Below, in pieces: positions 45,896 to 54,940 of a stretch of DNA of 64,000 bases. This DNA is from Halopseudomonas xinjiangensis (GTDB lineage: Bacteria; Pseudomonadota; Gammaproteobacteria; Pseudomonadales; Pseudomonadaceae), in the NCBI GenBank assembly GCA_011050525.1, contig DRFO01000020.1, positions 62,001 through 126,000 on the forward strand, written 5' to 3'. Numbering within the stretch: the first letter of the stretch is position 1; every line of letters starts with the position of its first letter. Under the pieces are notes generated by a model. The model ran no database searches and had not been told where the DNA came from. It saw nothing but the letters and a program-made list of their open reading frames with translations. The position numbers and the translations under genes are program-made.

Positions 45896-46069
45896 GTCAG
45901 TCTTCGCGCACGCCCCAAAAACATTAGTCCTCACGCGCACCACTGAAGGTCAGTCCTCGCGCACGCCACAAAAACGTCAGTCCCCACGCACGCCACAAAA
46001 ACGTCAGTCCTCACGCGCACTACTGAAGGTCAGTCCTCTGAAGGTCAGTCCTCGCGCACGCCCCAAAAC
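45896..46069 (+). repeat. short tandem array of two alternating unit types
   Basis: 27-nt units GTCAGTCCTCGCGCACGCC(A/C)CAAAAAC at 45896, 45949, 45976 and 46044 (26 nt); 26-nt units RTYAGTCCTCACGCGCAC(C/T)ACTGAAG at 45923 and 46003; partial unit at 46029. Confidence 0.85.
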
Positions 46070-46095
46070 GTCATCCCCGCGAAGGCGGGGATCCA
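46070..46095 (-). repeat. palindromic repeat, copy 2 (inverted, GTCATCCCCGCGAAGGCGGGGATCCA)
   Basis: Near reverse complement of copies 1 and 3. Confidence 0.85.
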
Positions 46096-46136
46096 GCCTT
46101 TTCTGCATCGTGCTCGATGCGGCCGGCTGGTACCCC

Positions 46137-46164
46137 TGGATTCCCGCCTTCGCGGGAATGACGG
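46137..46164 (+). repeat. palindromic repeat, copy 3
   Basis: TGGATTCCCGCCTTCGCGGGAATGACGG. Confidence 0.85.
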
Positions 46165-46271
46165 GGGGTAGGCGGGGCGCAGCTGTAGTGTTTTGGCTGT
46201 TTTCCCCGCAAAGGTCCGTTATCCCGCGAAGGCCGTTCCCCTCGCAAAAGGTCCGGCATCCCACCAATCTC

Positions 46272-46297
46272 GTCATCCCCGCGAAGGCGGGGATCCA
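46272..46297 (-). repeat. palindromic repeat, copy 4 (inverted)
   Basis: GTCATCCCCGCGAAGGCGGGGATCCA, identical to copy 2. Confidence 0.85.
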
Positions 46298-46312
46298 TTG
46301 GTTGCCCCGCAG

Positions 46313-46376: not shown

Positions 46377-47282
46377 TCAGCTGAACTTCTGAATATTTGC
46401 CATCAGTTCACGCAGCGCTTCGATGTTGTCCTTGGGGTGTACGGCGTTGTCGAAGTTGCACAGCTGCTCGAAGTTGGCCGCCACGTCTTCCGGCGTGAAG
46501 CCTTCGTCCGGGTTGAAGCCAATACCCAGTGACCGCTCCCAGCGCACTTTTCCCATCCAGCCGCCACCTACCTCAAATAGGCTAGAGGTTTCCTGACAGT
46601 CTTCGGAGCAGAGATATGCTACCAGCGGGCTGACCAGCTCAGGCTTGAGCTTCTCGAAGGCGCCGGGCGGAAACAGACCCTCGGTCATGCGCGTGCCGCC
46701 AGTGGGGGCAATGGCGTTGACGAAAATGTTGTTCTTGCGGCCTTCGATAGCCAGGGTGCGGGTCAAACCATACAGACCCAGCTTGGCCATGCCGTAGTTG
46801 GCCTGGCCAAAGTTGCCGTAGATGCCGGAGGTGGAAGCAGTGAAGATCACGCGGCCGAAATTCTGGTCTTTCATGTAGGGCCAGGCAGCGTGGGTGACCT
46901 TGTAGGCGCCTTCGACGTGGACCCGGTAAACCAGGTCCCAGTCAGCGTCGGTCATCTTGGCGAAGCTCTTGTCGCGCAGAATCCCGGCGTTATTGACGAC
47001 TACGTCAACGCGGCCAAAGTTGTCCATGGCGCACTGAACGATCTTTTCGCCATCGATCACGTTGTCAGGGTTCGCTACGGCGGTGCCGCCTGCGGCTTTG
47101 ATTTCTTCAACGACCTTCAGCGCCGCTTCGCTGTTGGCGCCTTCGCCCTGGGTGCTGCCACCCAGATCGTTAACAATGACCTTGGCGCCATGCTTGGCGA
47201 ACAACAGCGCGTGGGCGCGGCCAATACCGCCGCCAGCGCCGGTAACAATGACGACTTTGTCGTCGAAACGAATATCGCTCAT
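46377..47282 (-). CDS. SDR family dehydrogenase (3-hydroxyacyl-CoA dehydrogenase / HSD17B4-like)
   Basis: VVIVTGAGGGIGRAHALLFAKHGAKVIVNDLGGSTQGEG, NNAGILRDKSFAKM, YGMAKLGLYGLTRTLAIEG. Confidence 0.9.
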   Translation of the reverse strand: MSDIRFDDKVVIVTGAGGGIGRAHALLFAKHGAKVIVNDLGGSTQGEGANSEAALKVVEEIKAAGGTAVANPDNVIDGEKIVQCAMDNFGRVDVVVNNAGILRDKSFAKMTDADWDLVYRVHVEGAYKVTHAAWPYMKDQNFGRVIFTASTSGIYGNFGQANYGMAKLGLYGLTRTLAIEGRKNNIFVNAIAPTGGTRMTEGLFPPGAFEKLKPELVSPLVAYLCSEDCQETSSLFEVGGGWMGKVRWERSLGIGFNPDEGFTPEDVAANFEQLCNFDNAVHPKDNIEALRELMANIQKFS

Positions 47283-47430: not shown

Positions 47431-48612
47431 TTACACCAGTTCTACCGCTACTGCAGTTGCTTCGCCGCCACCGATGCACAGCGCCGCCACGCCACGCTTG
47501 CCGCCAGTTTTCTGCAGCGCGTTGATCAGCGTGACGATGATGCGCGAACCGGTCGAGCCGACCGGGTGGCCCTGGGCGCAGGCGCCCCCAAAGATATTGA
47601 CCTTGGCATGGTCCAGGTTGTGCTCCCGCATCGCCAGCATCGTGACCATGGCAAAGGCTTCGTTGATTTCGAACAGGTCGACGTCATCCTTGCTCCAGCC
47701 TGTCTTGTTGAACAGGTTGGCCATGGCGCCGATGGGCGCTGTGGTGAATTCACTGGGGTCCTGGCTCTGGGTGGCATGACCGACGATGCGGGCAAGCGGC
47801 TTGAGACCGCGGCGCTCGGCTTCTGCGGCGGTCATCAATACCAGCGCACTGGCACCGTCCGAGATCGAGCTGGCGTTGGCCGCTGTGATAGTGCCGTCTT
47901 TCTTGAAGGCGGGCTTGAGGCCGGGAATCTTCTCGATATTGGCGTTATGGGGCTGCTCGTCATCTTTGACAATCGTCTCGCCCTTGCGGCTGCTGACGGT
48001 GATCGGCACGATTTCGCTGTCCAGCGAACCATTGTCGATTGCAGCCTTGGCGCGCTTGAGCGATTCAATGGCGTAGGCGTCCATGTCTTCACGGTTCAAC
48101 CCGTTCTGCCCGGCAGTATCCTGGGCGAAGGATCCCATCAAGCGACCAGTCCGTGCATCCTCAAGGCCATCAAGAAACATGTGGTCCTTGATTTCGCCGT
48201 GCCCCATGCGCAAGCCGCTGCGCGCCTTTTCCATCAGATAGGGGGCGTTGGACATGCTTTCCATGCCTCCCGCCACCATGACCTGATTGGTGCCGGCTTT
48301 CAGCATGTCATGTGCCAGCATCACGGCTTTCATGCCCGAGCCACACAGCTTGTTGATAGTGGTGCAGCCCGTTGTGGCCGGCAGACCGGCGTTAAGGCTG
48401 GCCTGACGGGCCGGGCCCTGCTTGAGCCCGGCTGGCAGCACGCATCCCATGATGACTTCCTGCACATCTTCTGGTGCCACACCGGCGCGGCTGACTGCCT
48501 CGCGAATAGCGGCAGCGCCCAGATCAACTGCTGCTACGCTGGCCAGGCTGCCCTGAAAGCCGCCCATGGGGGTACGCACGCCACTCACGATTACGATGCT
48601 GTTATCCGACAT
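47431..48612 (-). CDS. acetyl-CoA C-acyltransferase (thiolase)
   Basis: INKLCGSGMKAVMLAHD, NEAFAMVTM, GGACAQGHPVGSTGSRI, CIGGGEATA. Confidence 0.94.
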   Translation of the reverse strand: MSDNSIVIVSGVRTPMGGFQGSLASVAAVDLGAAAIREAVSRAGVAPEDVQEVIMGCVLPAGLKQGPARQASLNAGLPATTGCTTINKLCGSGMKAVMLAHDMLKAGTNQVMVAGGMESMSNAPYLMEKARSGLRMGHGEIKDHMFLDGLEDARTGRLMGSFAQDTAGQNGLNREDMDAYAIESLKRAKAAIDNGSLDSEIVPITVSSRKGETIVKDDEQPHNANIEKIPGLKPAFKKDGTITAANASSISDGASALVLMTAAEAERRGLKPLARIVGHATQSQDPSEFTTAPIGAMANLFNKTGWSKDDVDLFEINEAFAMVTMLAMREHNLDHAKVNIFGGACAQGHPVGSTGSRIIVTLINALQKTGGKRGVAALCIGGGEATAVAVELV

Positions 48613-48824
48613 TTTACCTCCTGAATCTGACTGAATGCTTATCTGTGGTCATCAAGCGACTTGATCGAAAGATTATACCCTTAATATGTTTTTCTCCCAG
48701 GAGTATGATCCAGTTCATACTTTGGAGTGATAGGTAGCTTTCCGCTGGCTTGGCTATAGTTCACTTCATGGCAGGCCAAAGAGCCTGCCCGACCCTAACA
48801 ATCCCAAGAACAGCAGGTCATCCG

Positions 48825-50507
48825 ATGTTAAATACCCGTGTCCTCAAGCCGACCGAGTCGGCGCACTCCACCCCTTTGCTGATCAAGAATCTGTTGTTAT
48901 CCGGAGTGCGCTATGAGCGCAGCCAGGAAATTGTCTACCGCGACATCAGCCGCTATGACTACGCCACGCTCAATCAGCGTATCCGCCGCCTCGCGAACGC
49001 GCTGACCAGCGCTGGTGTGAAGCCGGGCGACACCGTTGCGGTCATGGACTGGGACAGTCACCGTTATCTGGAATGCATGTTCGCCATTCCCATGATCGGA
49101 GCGGTGCTGCATACGATCAATATCCGTCTGTCGCCCGAGCAGATTCTCTACACCATGAATCACGCCGAAGATATCTTCGTATTGGTCAACAGCGAGTTCG
49201 TGCCCATCTACAAGGCTATCGAAGGGCAGTTGACTACCGTCAAGAAAACCATTCTATTGACCGACGGCCCGGAGAAGACCGCTGAACTGCCCGATCTGGT
49301 AGGTGAATACGAACAATTGCTGGCCGCAGCGGAGCCGACCTACGAGTTCGCTGATTTTGATGAAAACTCCATTGCGACCACTTTCTACACCACCGGCACA
49401 ACCGGTAACCCCAAGGGCGTGTACTTCACCCATCGTCAACTGGTGCTGCACACCCTTACCCAGGCAGGGACCATGGGCGGGCTGGATACCGTGCGCATAT
49501 TTGGCAACCGTGACGTTTATATGCCCATCACGCCGATGTTTCACGTGCACGCCTGGGGCATTCCCTATACCGCGACGCTGATGGGTGTGAAGCAGGTGTA
49601 TCCAGGCCGTTACGAGCCGGAGTTGCTCATCGAGCTGATCAGGAAGGAAAAGGTAACCTTCTCCCACTGTGTGCCGACTATCCTGCAGATGTTACTCAAC
49701 GCCAAAGGTGCCCAGGATATGGACTTCGGTGGCATGAAGATGATCATTGGCGGCAGCGCGTTGAACCGTAGCTTGTATGAAGCAGCCAAGAAAAAGGGCG
49801 TGGTACTGTCCGCAGCCTATGGCATGTCAGAAACCTGTCCGCTGATCTCGACCGGCTATATCAATCTGGAACTGGAAGCCGGCACCGAAGATGAGCGCGC
49901 GGCCTATCGCATCAAGGCGGGCGTACCCGTCCCCCTGGTGGAAGCGCGGTTGATGGATGGCAGCGGAAAGTTCCTGCCCGAAGACGGCAAGACGCAGGGT
50001 GAGTTGGTGTTGCGAGCGCCATGGTTGACCCAGGGATATTTCCGCGAGCCGGAGAAGAGTGATGAATTGTGGGCGCACGGCTGGATGCATACCGGCGATG
50101 TCGCGACTATCGACCAGATGGGCTTTATCGACATTCGCGACCGGATCAAGGATGTCATCAAGACCGGTGGTGAGTGGATTTCATCCCTGGAGTTGGAAGA
50201 CCTGATCAGCACCTGCCCTGCGGTCAGGGAAGTAGCAGTGGTCGGCGTGCCTGACCCGCAGTGGGACGAGCGACCTTTCGCCCTCATCGTGCCCTGTGAA
50301 GGTCACGAGATGAATGCCCGCCTGCTTCGCGATCATCTGAAAACCTATGTCGATGAAGGTCGGATCAACAAATGGGCCGTTCCGAGCCAGATCGCAACTG
50401 TTACCGAAATACCCAAAACCAGCGTCGGCAAACTCGACAAGAAGAAAATTCGCGGCGAGATAGCCCAGTGGCAGCAGGCTGAGGCGCCGTTCCTGTCGAC
50501 CATCTGA
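48825..50507 (+). CDS. fatty-acid--CoA ligase (AlkK-type)
   Basis: Start at MLNTRVLKPTESAHSTPLLIKNLL; TTFYTTGTTGNPKGVYFTHRQ; MHTGDVATID; GKLDKKKIRGE. Confidence 0.9.
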   Translation: MLNTRVLKPTESAHSTPLLIKNLLLSGVRYERSQEIVYRDISRYDYATLNQRIRRLANALTSAGVKPGDTVAVMDWDSHRYLECMFAIPMIGAVLHTINIRLSPEQILYTMNHAEDIFVLVNSEFVPIYKAIEGQLTTVKKTILLTDGPEKTAELPDLVGEYEQLLAAAEPTYEFADFDENSIATTFYTTGTTGNPKGVYFTHRQLVLHTLTQAGTMGGLDTVRIFGNRDVYMPITPMFHVHAWGIPYTATLMGVKQVYPGRYEPELLIELIRKEKVTFSHCVPTILQMLLNAKGAQDMDFGGMKMIIGGSALNRSLYEAAKKKGVVLSAAYGMSETCPLISTGYINLELEAGTEDERAAYRIKAGVPVPLVEARLMDGSGKFLPEDGKTQGELVLRAPWLTQGYFREPEKSDELWAHGWMHTGDVATIDQMGFIDIRDRIKDVIKTGGEWISSLELEDLISTCPAVREVAVVGVPDPQWDERPFALIVPCEGHEMNARLLRDHLKTYVDEGRINKWAVPSQIATVTEIPKTSVGKLDKKKIRGEIAQWQQAEAPFLSTI

Positions 50508-50739
50508 AGGCTGTAAAACCGAGGTTCAGCGGGCCGGGCATGAAAATGTCTGGCCTGCTGTCATTTTGACGACATTTTGTTGTCGTAAATCGTTCCCTGG
50601 GTTCTGAAAATCATACTTTCGGCTGATCCCGGCGCTCTTCGGCTTGTCTATAGTGCGCGGCCTGTACGTGGCTGTCTTTCAGCCACTGCATCGTCCACTG
50701 TGCCAGCTTCTCTGGCCCCAGCAAGGCAGACTATTCATC

Positions 50740-52098
50740 ATGCAGCCAACACTTTTGTCTTCAGCTGTTCTGGCGCTTGCCCTTGTGGCCGGTACTGCCA
50801 GCGCCGCCGTCTCCGATCAGCAAGCCGCTGAATTGGGTAACAGCCTCACGCCAGTCGGCGCAGAAAAGGCGGGTAACACCGCTGGCACCATCCCGGCCTG
50901 GACTGGCGGACTGGGCACTGACGCAGGCTCGGTCGAAAACGGCTTTCTGACCAACCCCTATGCTGCCGACAAGCCTTTATTCGTCATTACGGCGGACAAC
51001 TACGAGCAGTACGCCGAGAATCTGGCCCCCGGCCACGTAGCCATGTTCAAGCGCTACCCCGAGACCTACCGCATGCCGGTATACGAGTCTCGCCGCAGCG
51101 TTGCGATGCCTGAGGATGTATACAAGGCTACCGCTCAGAACGCGCGCAATACCCAACTGGTAGAAGGTGGCAACGGCCTGGAGAATTACAAGCTGGCCAA
51201 TGCCTTTCCGATCCCCGCCGATGGTGTGGAAGTGATCTGGAACCACATCACCCGATACCGTGGCGGCTCGCTGGAGCGCGTCGTGACCCAGGCGACTCCG
51301 CAGGTCAATGGCAGCTTCGGCATCGTGCGCTTTGTCGAACAGTATGTGTTGCCCGAGGCGCTGACCGATTACGATCCGGAGCGCATGGATAATATTCTCT
51401 ATTACTTCAAACAACGGGTAACCGATCCAGGTCGTCTGGCTGGCAACGTGTTGCTGGTTCACGAAACGGTAAATCAGGTCCAGACACCACGTATGGCCTG
51501 GATCTACAACGCAGGTCAGCGTCGCGTTCGCCGCGCGCCGCAGGTCTCTTATGATGGCCCGGGCACGGCAGCTGACGGTATGCGTACCTCCGATAATCTG
51601 GATATGTATAACGGTGCCCCCGATCGTTACGAGTGGGAACTGGTAGGCAAAAAAGAGCTTTATATCCCGTACAACAGCTACAACCTGGGCTCCCCCGAGC
51701 ACCAGTACAGCGACGTGATCAAGGCCGGCCATCTCAACCAGGACCTGACCCGCTATGAGCTGCACAGGGTGTGGGAAGTGGTTGCTACCGTGAAGCCTGA
51801 CCAGCGCCACATCTACGCCAAGCGTCAGTTCTTTATCGACGAAGACTCCTGGCAGGCTGCTCACATTGACCACTACGATGCCCGCGGCACCATGTGGCGT
51901 GTAGCAGAAGCCCATGCGCTGCATCGTTATAACGCGCAGGTACCGGGCTTTGCTGCCGAAACCTTGTACGACCTGCTCGCCGGTCGCTACCTAGCAATGG
52001 GTATGAATAACGAAGAAAGCCAGGACTACAACTACGGCTTTCGTGCCAGCGCCAACGAGTTCACCCCCGCTGCACTGCGTCAGTCTGGCGTCCGCTAA
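50740..52098 (+). CDS. DUF1329 domain-containing outer-membrane/periplasmic protein
   Basis: Signal peptide MQPTLLSSAVLALALVAGTASAA; LTPVGAEKAGNTAGTIPAWTGGL; long DUF1329-type body. Confidence 0.9.
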   Translation: MQPTLLSSAVLALALVAGTASAAVSDQQAAELGNSLTPVGAEKAGNTAGTIPAWTGGLGTDAGSVENGFLTNPYAADKPLFVITADNYEQYAENLAPGHVAMFKRYPETYRMPVYESRRSVAMPEDVYKATAQNARNTQLVEGGNGLENYKLANAFPIPADGVEVIWNHITRYRGGSLERVVTQATPQVNGSFGIVRFVEQYVLPEALTDYDPERMDNILYYFKQRVTDPGRLAGNVLLVHETVNQVQTPRMAWIYNAGQRRVRRAPQVSYDGPGTAADGMRTSDNLDMYNGAPDRYEWELVGKKELYIPYNSYNLGSPEHQYSDVIKAGHLNQDLTRYELHRVWEVVATVKPDQRHIYAKRQFFIDEDSWQAAHIDHYDARGTMWRVAEAHALHRYNAQVPGFAAETLYDLLAGRYLAMGMNNEESQDYNYGFRASANEFTPAALRQSGVR

Positions 52099-52216
52099 GA
52101 CGTGCGAGCATGACTCTCAGCCCAGCTGAGTAAATACCAGGTCGGCATAGCGCCGGCCTGGTTCTCTGTTACAAATCGACATGACCTGCATCGCATGCAG
52201 CCGATACACTGGCCGC

Positions 52217-54940
52217 ATGGCATCGTTGACTCCCTTCTACCCCGGCAAGATTTTCAGACCCCCGCTCCCCGCGGATCATTTGCCGCGTCCCGATCTGATG
52301 AGTGCGTTCAACCAGGCGGGCAGTCGAAGACTGGTTCTGGTCACCGCTCCGGCCGGTTTCGGCAAAAGCACCCTGGCGATTGAATACTGCGAACAGCTTG
52401 ATGCCGCGTGGCACTGCGTATGGATCGCGCTGGATGCGCAGGATGCTCAGCCTGGGCAATTCATGCGGTCGGTGGTTACCGGACTGCGATCAGTCTATCC
52501 GCTGCTGGGTGATGCTGAGCTGACCTTGTTGCAGCAAAGTCATAGCCAGCAACCGCTGGACATTGAGCAACTTATGCTTGCAATACTTGCAAAACTGGCC
52601 GAGCAGCATCCCGCGGATCAGCCGGCAGTGCTGGTGCTGGATGACTATCACCTGGTGCAAAGCCCTCATTGCGACCGGCTTTGCGCCCTGCTGCTCGACC
52701 ATCTCCCCGCGTCTTTTCAGCTATTGCTGACCAGCCGGCAGCGCCCTGAATGGCACCTGGCACGCCTGCGCCTGCGTAATCAGGTGCTTGAGGTCACCGA
52801 AGATCAGCTACGTCTGAGCAGTGAAGCGTCGGCCGATTTTCTGAAGCAAGCCGGAGTTGCAGCGTTAGATCCTCAATGGTCACGCCAGATTCTCCAGCGC
52901 AACGAGGGCTGGATCGCAGGGTTGAGGCTGATGGTCGTCGCAGCCGAGCACAGCATCCCGGCTCCACGGTCTTTCACGACGTCCCGGGTCAGCGGCCCCC
53001 TGATTGGCGAGTACCTGCTGGAAGAGGTCATCTACGGTCAGCCCGATCGAGTGCAGAGCTTTCTGCAGGACATTGCCTGGTTGGACCATTTTACGGCGGA
53101 CCTGTGTGACAGCGTCCGTGAAGCCGCGAATAGCGCCGAGGTTATTGCCCACCTGCTGGCGCACCGGGTTTTTCTCGTGCCCTTGGACCATGAGGGCAAG
53201 TGGTACCGTTTTCACCATCTTTTCTCCGATGTGCTGCGCGAGCGCGCGATGCAGGGGGGCGGCCAGCGTAGACGCCTGGACCTACATTGGCGGGCCTGCC
53301 AGTGGTTCAATGCCCAGGGCCGCCTGACCGAGGCGGTGGAACATGCGCTGGCCGCCGAGCGGCCGGACGAGGCGGCAAATCTCGTGCAACTGCTTCCGCT
53401 GGATCAACTGCTGGCCGAGCAACCGGTAAGCACCCTGTTGCGCTGGAAGGCTGAGTTGCCCAAGGCCTTGCAGGGGAGTTCCGAACGCCTGGTCATGGTC
53501 CATGCCTGGACGCTGGCATTGGCTTGTCAGCTGGAAGATGCCGAGGCGATGCTCGACAGATTGCAGTTTTTTCTGCCGCAGCGGGATGCCTATCGCCAGC
53601 GCGTGTTGATTGGCCAGACGATGTGCCTGAAAGGTTTTCTGGCCCGAGCGGCCGGTCGGCTGGAGGAGGCGGTGCACTATTGTCACCAGAGCCTCGCCTG
53701 CCTGGACGAGAGGGAGGCGGGCAGCCGGTTGATGGCGATGCTGACCCTGGCGGATATCGAGCTCTGTCGCCAGCGGATAGACAGCGCGCGGCAGTGGACC
53801 AGAACTGCAGTCGAACTGGCGCAGCGAGTCGGCAACCTGTATTTCGAATCCCAGGTCGTTTTGATGCGCGCCCGCCTGATGCAAGCGCGTGGGCAGGTGG
53901 AGCGTGCCACACGTGCAGTGCGGGGGCAGCTTGAGCTGATCGAGCAGGCAAGGCCGCCACAGGGGCTGGCCATACGGGGAAGATTGATCGTCTACCAAGG
54001 CTATCTGCTGAGCCTTCTCGGTAATCGAAAGATGGCGCTTGTCGCGTTGCAGGAAGGTATTGATGAGGCGCGGCGCTGCAGGGATGTGCATGTGCTGCTC
54101 GGTTACTGTCTGAAGGCCGGCCTCTTGGCGAGACAGGCCGACAGCGCCACCGAGGCATTTGACACCCTCACAGAAGCCGAGCGTCTGATGCATCAATGGG
54201 ATGTTCCGCCAGTTTATTATCTCGGATGGATCACTGCCATCAAGAGCGATCTGTGGATGACCACTGGCCGGCACGAGCTGGCTGAGCACTGGTTGCCGCG
54301 TCTGCGGCAGACGTATTCCTCAAGCAGCCCTGCGGCACCGCCGCCGTTTTTTCACGCGTTGTCGGTGGTGGTCGAGCTGGTCTATGCGCGGTTGCTCTGG
54401 TCCAAGGGGGACCAGATTGCCTGCGAAAGTCTGCTGCGTGATTTATTGAGCAGGCTGCAGCGCACCGGAGAGCGGCTTCAGCAGTTGAAGGTGCTGGTGC
54501 ATCTGGTTCACCTGTTGTACCTCACCCACCGGCCTGACGCAGCAGAGCAGGCGCTGCGCATGGCTTTGTCGCTTGCTGAAGAAGATCGCCTGGCGGGTTT
54601 GTTCATGCCGTTGATCCAGCAAGCGCCAGCGGGGCTGGTCGAGGCGTTGCAGCGAGCATCGGCCTCCGCGCTGCGTGACCAGTTGATCGAAATGCTGCCC
54701 TCTATCCATCAGCCAGGAGGGCGGTTGACTGTTGCGAGCTTGCGCGAGCCACTCAGCAATCGCGAGCTGGATGTGTTGCGCTGCATCGCCCAGGGCTACT
54801 CGAACCAGCAGATCAGCGAAGCATTGTTCATCTCGCTGCATACGGTTAAAAGCCATGCCCGGCGTATCAATCACAAGCTTGGCGTGGCGCGTCGCACCCA
54901 GGCAGTGGCGCAGGCCAAGGTAATGGGTCTACTGGCCTGA
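52217..54940 (+). CDS. MalT/AlkS-like LuxR family ATP-dependent transcriptional regulator
   Basis: Walker A VTAPAGFGKSTLAIEYC, LDDYHLV, C-terminal LuxR HTH LSNRELDVLRCIAQGYSNQQISEALFISLHTVKSHARRINHKLGV. Confidence 0.92.
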   Translation: MASLTPFYPGKIFRPPLPADHLPRPDLMSAFNQAGSRRLVLVTAPAGFGKSTLAIEYCEQLDAAWHCVWIALDAQDAQPGQFMRSVVTGLRSVYPLLGDAELTLLQQSHSQQPLDIEQLMLAILAKLAEQHPADQPAVLVLDDYHLVQSPHCDRLCALLLDHLPASFQLLLTSRQRPEWHLARLRLRNQVLEVTEDQLRLSSEASADFLKQAGVAALDPQWSRQILQRNEGWIAGLRLMVVAAEHSIPAPRSFTTSRVSGPLIGEYLLEEVIYGQPDRVQSFLQDIAWLDHFTADLCDSVREAANSAEVIAHLLAHRVFLVPLDHEGKWYRFHHLFSDVLRERAMQGGGQRRRLDLHWRACQWFNAQGRLTEAVEHALAAERPDEAANLVQLLPLDQLLAEQPVSTLLRWKAELPKALQGSSERLVMVHAWTLALACQLEDAEAMLDRLQFFLPQRDAYRQRVLIGQTMCLKGFLARAAGRLEEAVHYCHQSLACLDEREAGSRLMAMLTLADIELCRQRIDSARQWTRTAVELAQRVGNLYFESQVVLMRARLMQARGQVERATRAVRGQLELIEQARPPQGLAIRGRLIVYQGYLLSLLGNRKMALVALQEGIDEARRCRDVHVLLGYCLKAGLLARQADSATEAFDTLTEAERLMHQWDVPPVYYLGWITAIKSDLWMTTGRHELAEHWLPRLRQTYSSSSPAAPPPFFHALSVVVELVYARLLWSKGDQIACESLLRDLLSRLQRTGERLQQLKVLVHLVHLLYLTHRPDAAEQALRMALSLAEEDRLAGLFMPLIQQAPAGLVEALQRASASALRDQLIEMLPSIHQPGGRLTVASLREPLSNRELDVLRCIAQGYSNQQISEALFISLHTVKSHARRINHKLGVARRTQAVAQAKVMGLLA

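Follow-up and report, generated by a model that had tools for sequence, protein, structure and literature searches.

MalT and AlkS are both activators. MalT activates the maltose regulon of E. coli, and the MalT box is of the GGGGAT/GAGG type. AlkS is the alkane-responsive LAL activator of alkBFGHJKL in P. putida GPo1. The gene groups PA3921-PA3924 of P. aeruginosa and PP_0763-PP_0767 of P. putida, which we take to comprise genes for a thiolase, AlkK/FadD6, a DUF1302 protein, a DUF1329 protein and a LuxR-type regulator, apparently represent the same locus as the one studied here; the order we assume for them matches the gene order in related genomes.

Phenotypes have been reported for several of these genes. 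In P. putida, mutants in PP_0763 (alkK) are severely impaired on fatty acids of C5-C6 and moderately on those of C7-C10 (PMC9744835). On Tween 20, P. putida cannot do without PP_0765 (DUF1302) and PP_0766 (DUF1329), which have been proposed to be part of a transport system for a hydrophobic substrate (PMC10866462). PA3924 (FadD6) of P. aeruginosa complements a fadD mutant of E. coli (PMC3667196), and its expression rises with cis-2-decenoic acid (PMC4412052). A reanalysis of 73 studies found changed expression of PA3923 (DUF1302) in more than half of them (PMC8547006). Literature searches that included the orthologues PA3921 and PP_0767 found no published study of the regulator or its operator, and PA3921 is not mentioned in the main text of the HT-SELEX and ChIP-seq atlases of P. 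aeruginosa (PMC8041468, PMC13086498).

A conserved box at the alkK and DUF1329 promoters

The window analysed is a stretch of 64,000 nt from Halopseudomonas xinjiangensis (contig DRFO01000020.1, positions 62,001-126,000 of the forward strand; genome 3.97 Mb). Its relevant features are given below in window coordinates. Box positions are relative to the predicted transcription start, which was taken to lie ~7 nt past TATAGT (near 48767 for alkK and 50661 for DUF1329).

46377-47282, - strand: SDR dehydrogenase gene
47431-48612, - strand: thiolase gene (acetyl-CoA acyltransferase families), divergent from alkK and its conserved neighbour in the genus
48702-48721, no strand assigned: inverted repeat AGTATGA-N6-TCATACT, the right arm of which is part of box 1; partly conserved in the genus
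48715-48735, + strand: predicted operator box 1, TCATACTTTGGAGTGATAGGT, upstream of alkK at about -52 to -32; a related box is found at alkK family-wide
48755-48760, + strand: -10 hexamer TATAGT of the alkK promoter, invariant in the genus
48825-50507, + strand: AlkK-type medium-chain acyl-CoA ligase gene (AMP-binding domains; best NCBIfam model PRK06187, fatty-acid-CoA ligase)
50527-50560, + strand: terminator-like stem-loop of 15 pairs, 3' of alkK (consensus match only)
50611-50630, + strand: predicted operator box 2, TCATACTTTCGGCTGATCCC, upstream of DUF1329 at about -50 to -31
50649-50654, + strand: -10 hexamer TATAGT of the DUF1329 promoter, conserved
50740-52098, + strand: DUF1329 gene (PF07044, E 2e-148; weak LolA_like match)
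52136-52162, + strand: terminator-like stem-loop between DUF1329 and the regulator gene (consensus match only)
52217-54940, + strand: MalT-like LAL-type LuxR regulator gene (AAA ATPase, TPR_MalT, GerE HTH; listed open reading frame from 52181)

The AlkK-type ligase gene occupies a position orthologous to that of PA3924/FadD6 and PP_0763, and the DUF1329 protein is probably secreted and LolA-like. The terminator-like hairpins behind alkK and behind DUF1329 fit separate transcription of the two genes and, because one of them follows alkK, DUF1329 probably needs a promoter of its own. For the regulator gene, 52217 is a more probable start than 52181, since homology begins at residue 12-13; a dicarboxylate symporter gene lies downstream of it. 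Elsewhere in the window (46060-46300), repeated palindromic, REP-like elements of the CCCCGCGAAGGCGGGGATCC type are present between genes.

The preliminary description had proposed that the two promoters share a composite motif, formed by TCATACTTT (48715-48723 and 50611-50619), a spacer of 21-23 nt and GGCTTG(G/T)CTATAGT. Re-reading of the window returned exactly these coordinates, with right-hand parts GGCTTGGCTATAGT at 48747-48760 and GGCTTGTCTATAGT at 50641-50654, spacers of 23 nt (alkK) and 21 nt (DUF1329), and gaps of 64 and 85 nt, respectively, between TATAGT and the start codon. Within the window, the composite pattern matches at these two places only, and 100 dinucleotide shuffles yielded no match. 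Searched against the 3.97 Mb genome for its frequency by chance, it again gave two matches, both at this locus, and the reversed-pattern control gave none; a relaxed form of the pattern added a single, unrelated match in the whole genome. The likeness of the two promoters is not due to chance.

The division of the motif into these two halves had to be revised. TCATACTTT is indeed shared by both promoters, but promoter alignments show one long conserved block each, and it is therefore only the left part of the true site, which extends past it through nGAnnGAT(AGGT/CMC). The resulting box of 17-21 bp, TCAYnCYTTnGRnnGAT, is followed by the -10 hexamer TATAGT. In Halopseudomonas the box reads TTCATACTTTgGAnnGATAGGT before alkK and ATCATACTTTgGAnnGATCMC before DUF1329, and is followed in the genus alignments by a variable spacer and then the -10 region, usually (G)CTTGnCTATAGT. 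The GGCTTG sequence proved to be less conserved -10 context; it varies among promoters and genera, whereas the -10 itself varies much less, and we rejected it as a protein-binding motif. At the alkK promoters (n=14), 18 of the 21 box positions are invariant versus 21 of 184 positions elsewhere (Fisher p about 2e-12); the corresponding numbers for the DUF1329 promoters (n=13, leaving out locus L056, whose DUF1329 box is lost) are 14/21 and 12/204 (p about 1e-10).

The distance from the TCA of the box to the -10 is near-constant (38-40 nt). No recognisable -35 hexamer is present at the expected distance from either TATAGT, nor does the sigma-70 promoter listing hold a -35/-10 pair for either of them. 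The most conserved positions of the box form a weak dyad, TCAnnC-N4-GnnTGA (4/8 pairs), which is only suggestive of a site that might suit a dimeric GerE HTH, and the inverted repeat at 48702-48721 is a possible auxiliary half-site. A conserved A-rich element, ACAAnCCCAAnAA, is located at 48797-48815, just 5' of the alkK ribosome-binding site. It is found at the same place in relatives, including genomes without the regulator, and resembles a Crc/Hfq catabolite-repression target.

The box co-occurs with the regulator gene

The gene behind DUF1329 had been described as MalT/AlkS-like, and its domain matches are those of a MalT-like protein. Its product contains an N-terminal NTPase (AAA_16 and AAA_22 matches) with the P-loop APAG(F/Y)GK(S/T) in all aligned orthologues, a TPR sensor region (TPR_MalT, PF17874, E 4e-25) and a C-terminal GerE (LuxR) HTH (PF00196, residues 857-910, E 1e-18), and thus has all three domains of a LAL or MalT-like LuxR-type regulator. 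It scores 315 bits with the MalT equivalog model PRK04841, below the curated cut-off of 537. The HTH is near-invariant among the genus orthologues.

The genus set comprised 37 genomes, the window's own included, and regulator orthologues (at least 52% identity) are present in 15 of them; a sixteenth match, in genome G026, is only 33% identical. In all 13 loci of relatives that are long enough to show it, the gene order is thiolase-alkK-DUF1329-regulator. With at most one mismatch, TCATACTTTnGAnnGAT is found at the locus in all 15 genomes with the regulator, as two copies in 13 of them and as a single copy in G031 (an incomplete assembly) and G036; one genome (G016) has one further, weaker match away from the locus. 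The 22 regulator-less genomes contain just three one-mismatch sites, identical in sequence and none of them next to alkK. Hence, the box is found in 15/15 genomes with the regulator versus 0/22 without it (Fisher p 1e-10, in a test that ignores shared ancestry), so that box and regulator are present or absent together in the genus.

Nearly all 22 regulator-less congeners retain alkK (76-82% identical). The alkK upstream region was inspected in 16 cases: the same thiolase gene adjoins and no box is present. Ten of these regulator-less loci were read over a wider region. DUF1329 is kept in eight, with no box upstream of it, and in the other two (L125 and L126) both DUF1329 and the regulator gene are lost, which places alkK directly upstream of the dicarboxylate symporter gene. 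Genome-wide scans detected no further box elsewhere in the own genome, and none of its seven DUF1302 paralogues has a box with a matching promoter layout around it, so a genome-wide regulon was rejected; the predicted operator is shared by the two targets and absent from the rest of the genome.

The association extends through the Pseudomonadaceae. Pseudomonas petrae contains alkK, DUF1302, DUF1329 and a regulator that is 43% identical, with TCATCCCTTCGGCTGAT before alkK and TCACACTTTAGAGGGAT before DUF1302, each followed by a -10. Twenty further loci were sampled in other genera of the family: 17 share this box layout, and in the other three no target genes adjoin the regulator. The consensus of the sampled loci is TCAYNCYTTnGRNTGAT at alkK and TCACNCTTTnGRGSGATC at DUF1302. 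Scanning 299 genomes with TCAYNCYTTNGRNNGATN14-24TANAGT gave matches in 165, at most two per genome, and none in reversed controls. Box plus -10 is present in 163 of 166 genomes with a close orthologue versus 2 of 83 without (Fisher p about 4e-59, ancestry again being ignored), a comparison that sets apart 50 genomes of genera g16 and g19 with more distant homologues. In the three genomes that were missed, both promoters carry a box or a -10 hexamer that has diverged slightly. Two genomes without a close orthologue gave a match. In one of them, G222, a true alkK box is present and the regulator is absent. The match in the other, G005, which precedes an unrelated, probable minor-pilin gene, was taken as chance.

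The operator thus co-occurs with the regulator also when the two are unlinked: in genus g10 and in G067 the regulator gene is located 27-40 kb from the targets or on another contig, and the box is still present before DUF1302, so that close linkage alone cannot explain the association. The exception, which speaks against a simple rule, is formed by the ~50 genomes of g16 (~39% identity) and g19 (55-56%), in which a regulator homologue is present and a box match absent. At the loci examined in these two genera (L227 and L230-L233), the g16 homologues adjoin a DUF1329 gene, and in the neighbourhood of the g19 homologues neither alkK nor a DUF gene is present.

An order scan found the box in further families of the Pseudomonadales. 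Family f20 has it at two unlinked places: before DUF1302-DUF1329-LAL, with a thiolase gene adjoining and a LAL protein that is 28-30% identical, and before a gene whose product is a lipoprotein of ~950 residues. A gene for a similar lipoprotein comes after the box in family f39 and is itself followed by DUF1302 and DUF1329; in 2 of the 4 f39 loci read, a LAL gene is next. In family f2 the box lies between alkK and DUF1302. Three of four lipoproteins scanned match Lipase_bact_N. Two were scanned against NCBIfam, and both hit the VolA/Pla-1 phospholipase family with scores under the curated cut-off. The adjacent MalT-like gene in these other families is 28-38% identical overall. Thus, the box goes with genes for the hydrolysis of lipids, passage through the outer membrane and the activation of fatty acids. 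Matches of the family and order scans were also obtained in G595 and G396, and one in G668, which precedes a probable XRE-type regulator gene, was taken as chance.

Distantly related cassettes were seen as well. That of G026 (L057; LAL-DUF1302-DUF1329) has a perfect 12-bp inverted repeat, CCTTAAGTATGA-N12-TCATACTTAAGG, before DUF1302 on the - strand. This repeat is possibly the operator of a paralogous regulator using the same half-site, hinting that TCATACTT may be the half-site for this HTH subfamily. The own genome contains a second MalT-like gene (contig C2:9327-15149; 25% identical), ~1.5 kb from a DUF1302 gene whose product is 54% identical to that of the G026 cassette, and may therefore hold a paralogous LAL/DUF1302 cassette on contig C2.

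Proposed regulon and competing explanations

The shared box is very probably the operator of the adjacent MalT-like LAL activator, which would control an inducer-driven regulon for uptake and activation of fatty acids and lipid esters. The regulator would respond to an inducer (probably a fatty acid of medium chain length or a compound derived from it, for instance the acyl-CoA), and the ATP-bound protein would bind TCAYnCYTTnGRnnGAT over the -35 region and contact RNA polymerase at a promoter with a -10 and without a -35. Two separate units would be switched on: alkK, whose product converts fatty acids into acyl-CoAs, and DUF1329. The second unit would in most relatives be a DUF1302-DUF1329 operon, encoding an outer-membrane barrel and its periplasmic partner. 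Such a two-unit regulon would couple the entry of fatty acids or lipid esters from outside the cell with the activation that feeds them into beta-oxidation.

The co-occurrence data, including the unlinked cases, strongly support the initial proposal of a local regulon controlled by this regulator. The suggestion that it responds to a fatty-acid or hydrophobic substrate fits the target genes and the phenotypes of the orthologues, from which an inducer derived from medium-chain fatty acids would naturally be expected; we infer the identity of the inducer, as we do direct binding by the regulator and activation rather than repression.

The box might instead be bound by a different transcription factor, such as a global regulator of fatty-acid metabolism or stress, and the MalT-like gene might correlate with the box only through a shared locus that is gained or lost. 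The alkK box of G222, present without a regulator, and the box-less homologues of g16 and g19 would be in line with this. So would the HTH sequences, which do not discriminate: the motif ISLHTVK(S/T)H is common to the HTHs, some paralogues without a box included, and an HTH comparison did not separate box-linked regulators from box-less paralogues, so that the protein sequences do not by themselves establish the pairing of regulator and box. We nevertheless consider such a factor unlikely, because congeners that keep alkK, several of them also DUF1329, lack the box along with the regulator, because the box persists where the regulator is unlinked, and because it occurs almost nowhere else in the genomes, unlike the sites of a global regulator.

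If the MalT-like protein does bind the box, it could still act mainly as a repressor, or both repress in its ligand-free form and activate, as a site overlapping the -35 region would suit a repressor too. However, there is no -35 hexamer to occlude, the box is centred near -43, a typical activator placement, and both model proteins for this architecture, MalT and AlkS, activate their targets; a mainly repressing or a dual role is quite improbable. The absence of a -35, together with these known activators of the same architecture, argues for activation from a site covering the -35 region. Finally, the TATAGT hexamer and GCTTG context common to both promoters might suggest that they are alike only through recent segment duplication or ordinary sigma-70 promoter sequence, an explanation of negligible probability that is already contradicted by a box far more conserved than its surroundings, next to a spacer to the -10 that diverges freely, and maintained independently at the two promoters in different genera and even in different families.

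Significance and comparison with known systems

If activation by the MalT-like protein through the box is correct, a specific operator and regulon would be assigned to a regulator found in most Pseudomonas species. DUF1302 and DUF1329, two widespread protein families without an assigned function, would gain a link to the activation of fatty acids and, in other bacterial families, also to a lipase at the cell surface. The box is a candidate explanation for the expression changes of PA3923, which have no known regulator, and a box promoter would serve as a ready fatty-acid biosensor. We see an even chance that the operator and its LAL activator are ancient and form an order-wide lipid-acquisition regulon of the Pseudomonadales, comprising a VolA-type lipase on the surface, the DUF1302 barrel in the outer membrane, the DUF1329 carrier in the periplasm and the acyl-CoA ligase. 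DUF1302/DUF1329 would then constitute a dedicated import route for fatty acids or lipids, with the LAL protein sensing the inducer.

The regulator is of a known kind; what appears to be new is the regulon and its operator, conserved well beyond the own genome. As in MalT of E. coli, an AAA/NTPase domain is combined with a MalT-type TPR region and a C-terminal GerE HTH, and, by analogy, activation is presumed to depend on ATP and inducer and to occur from sites covering or adjoining the -35. Unlike those of MalT, its targets would be fatty-acid genes and not the maltose regulon, and TCAYnCYTTnGRnnGAT differs from the MalT box, which is of the GGGGAT/GAGG type. With AlkS, the system has in common a LAL regulator, an AlkK-type acyl-CoA ligase as predicted target and a hydrophobic-substrate context. 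In contrast to the AlkS system, the regulon is a chromosomal fatty-acid locus, and no alkB or alkane hydroxylase gene was found among the box-bearing genes, neither in the own genome (alkK and DUF1329 only) nor among those identified in relatives. Compared with PA3921-PA3924 and PP_0763-PP_0767, the Halopseudomonas locus is without DUF1302, and the box directly precedes DUF1329.
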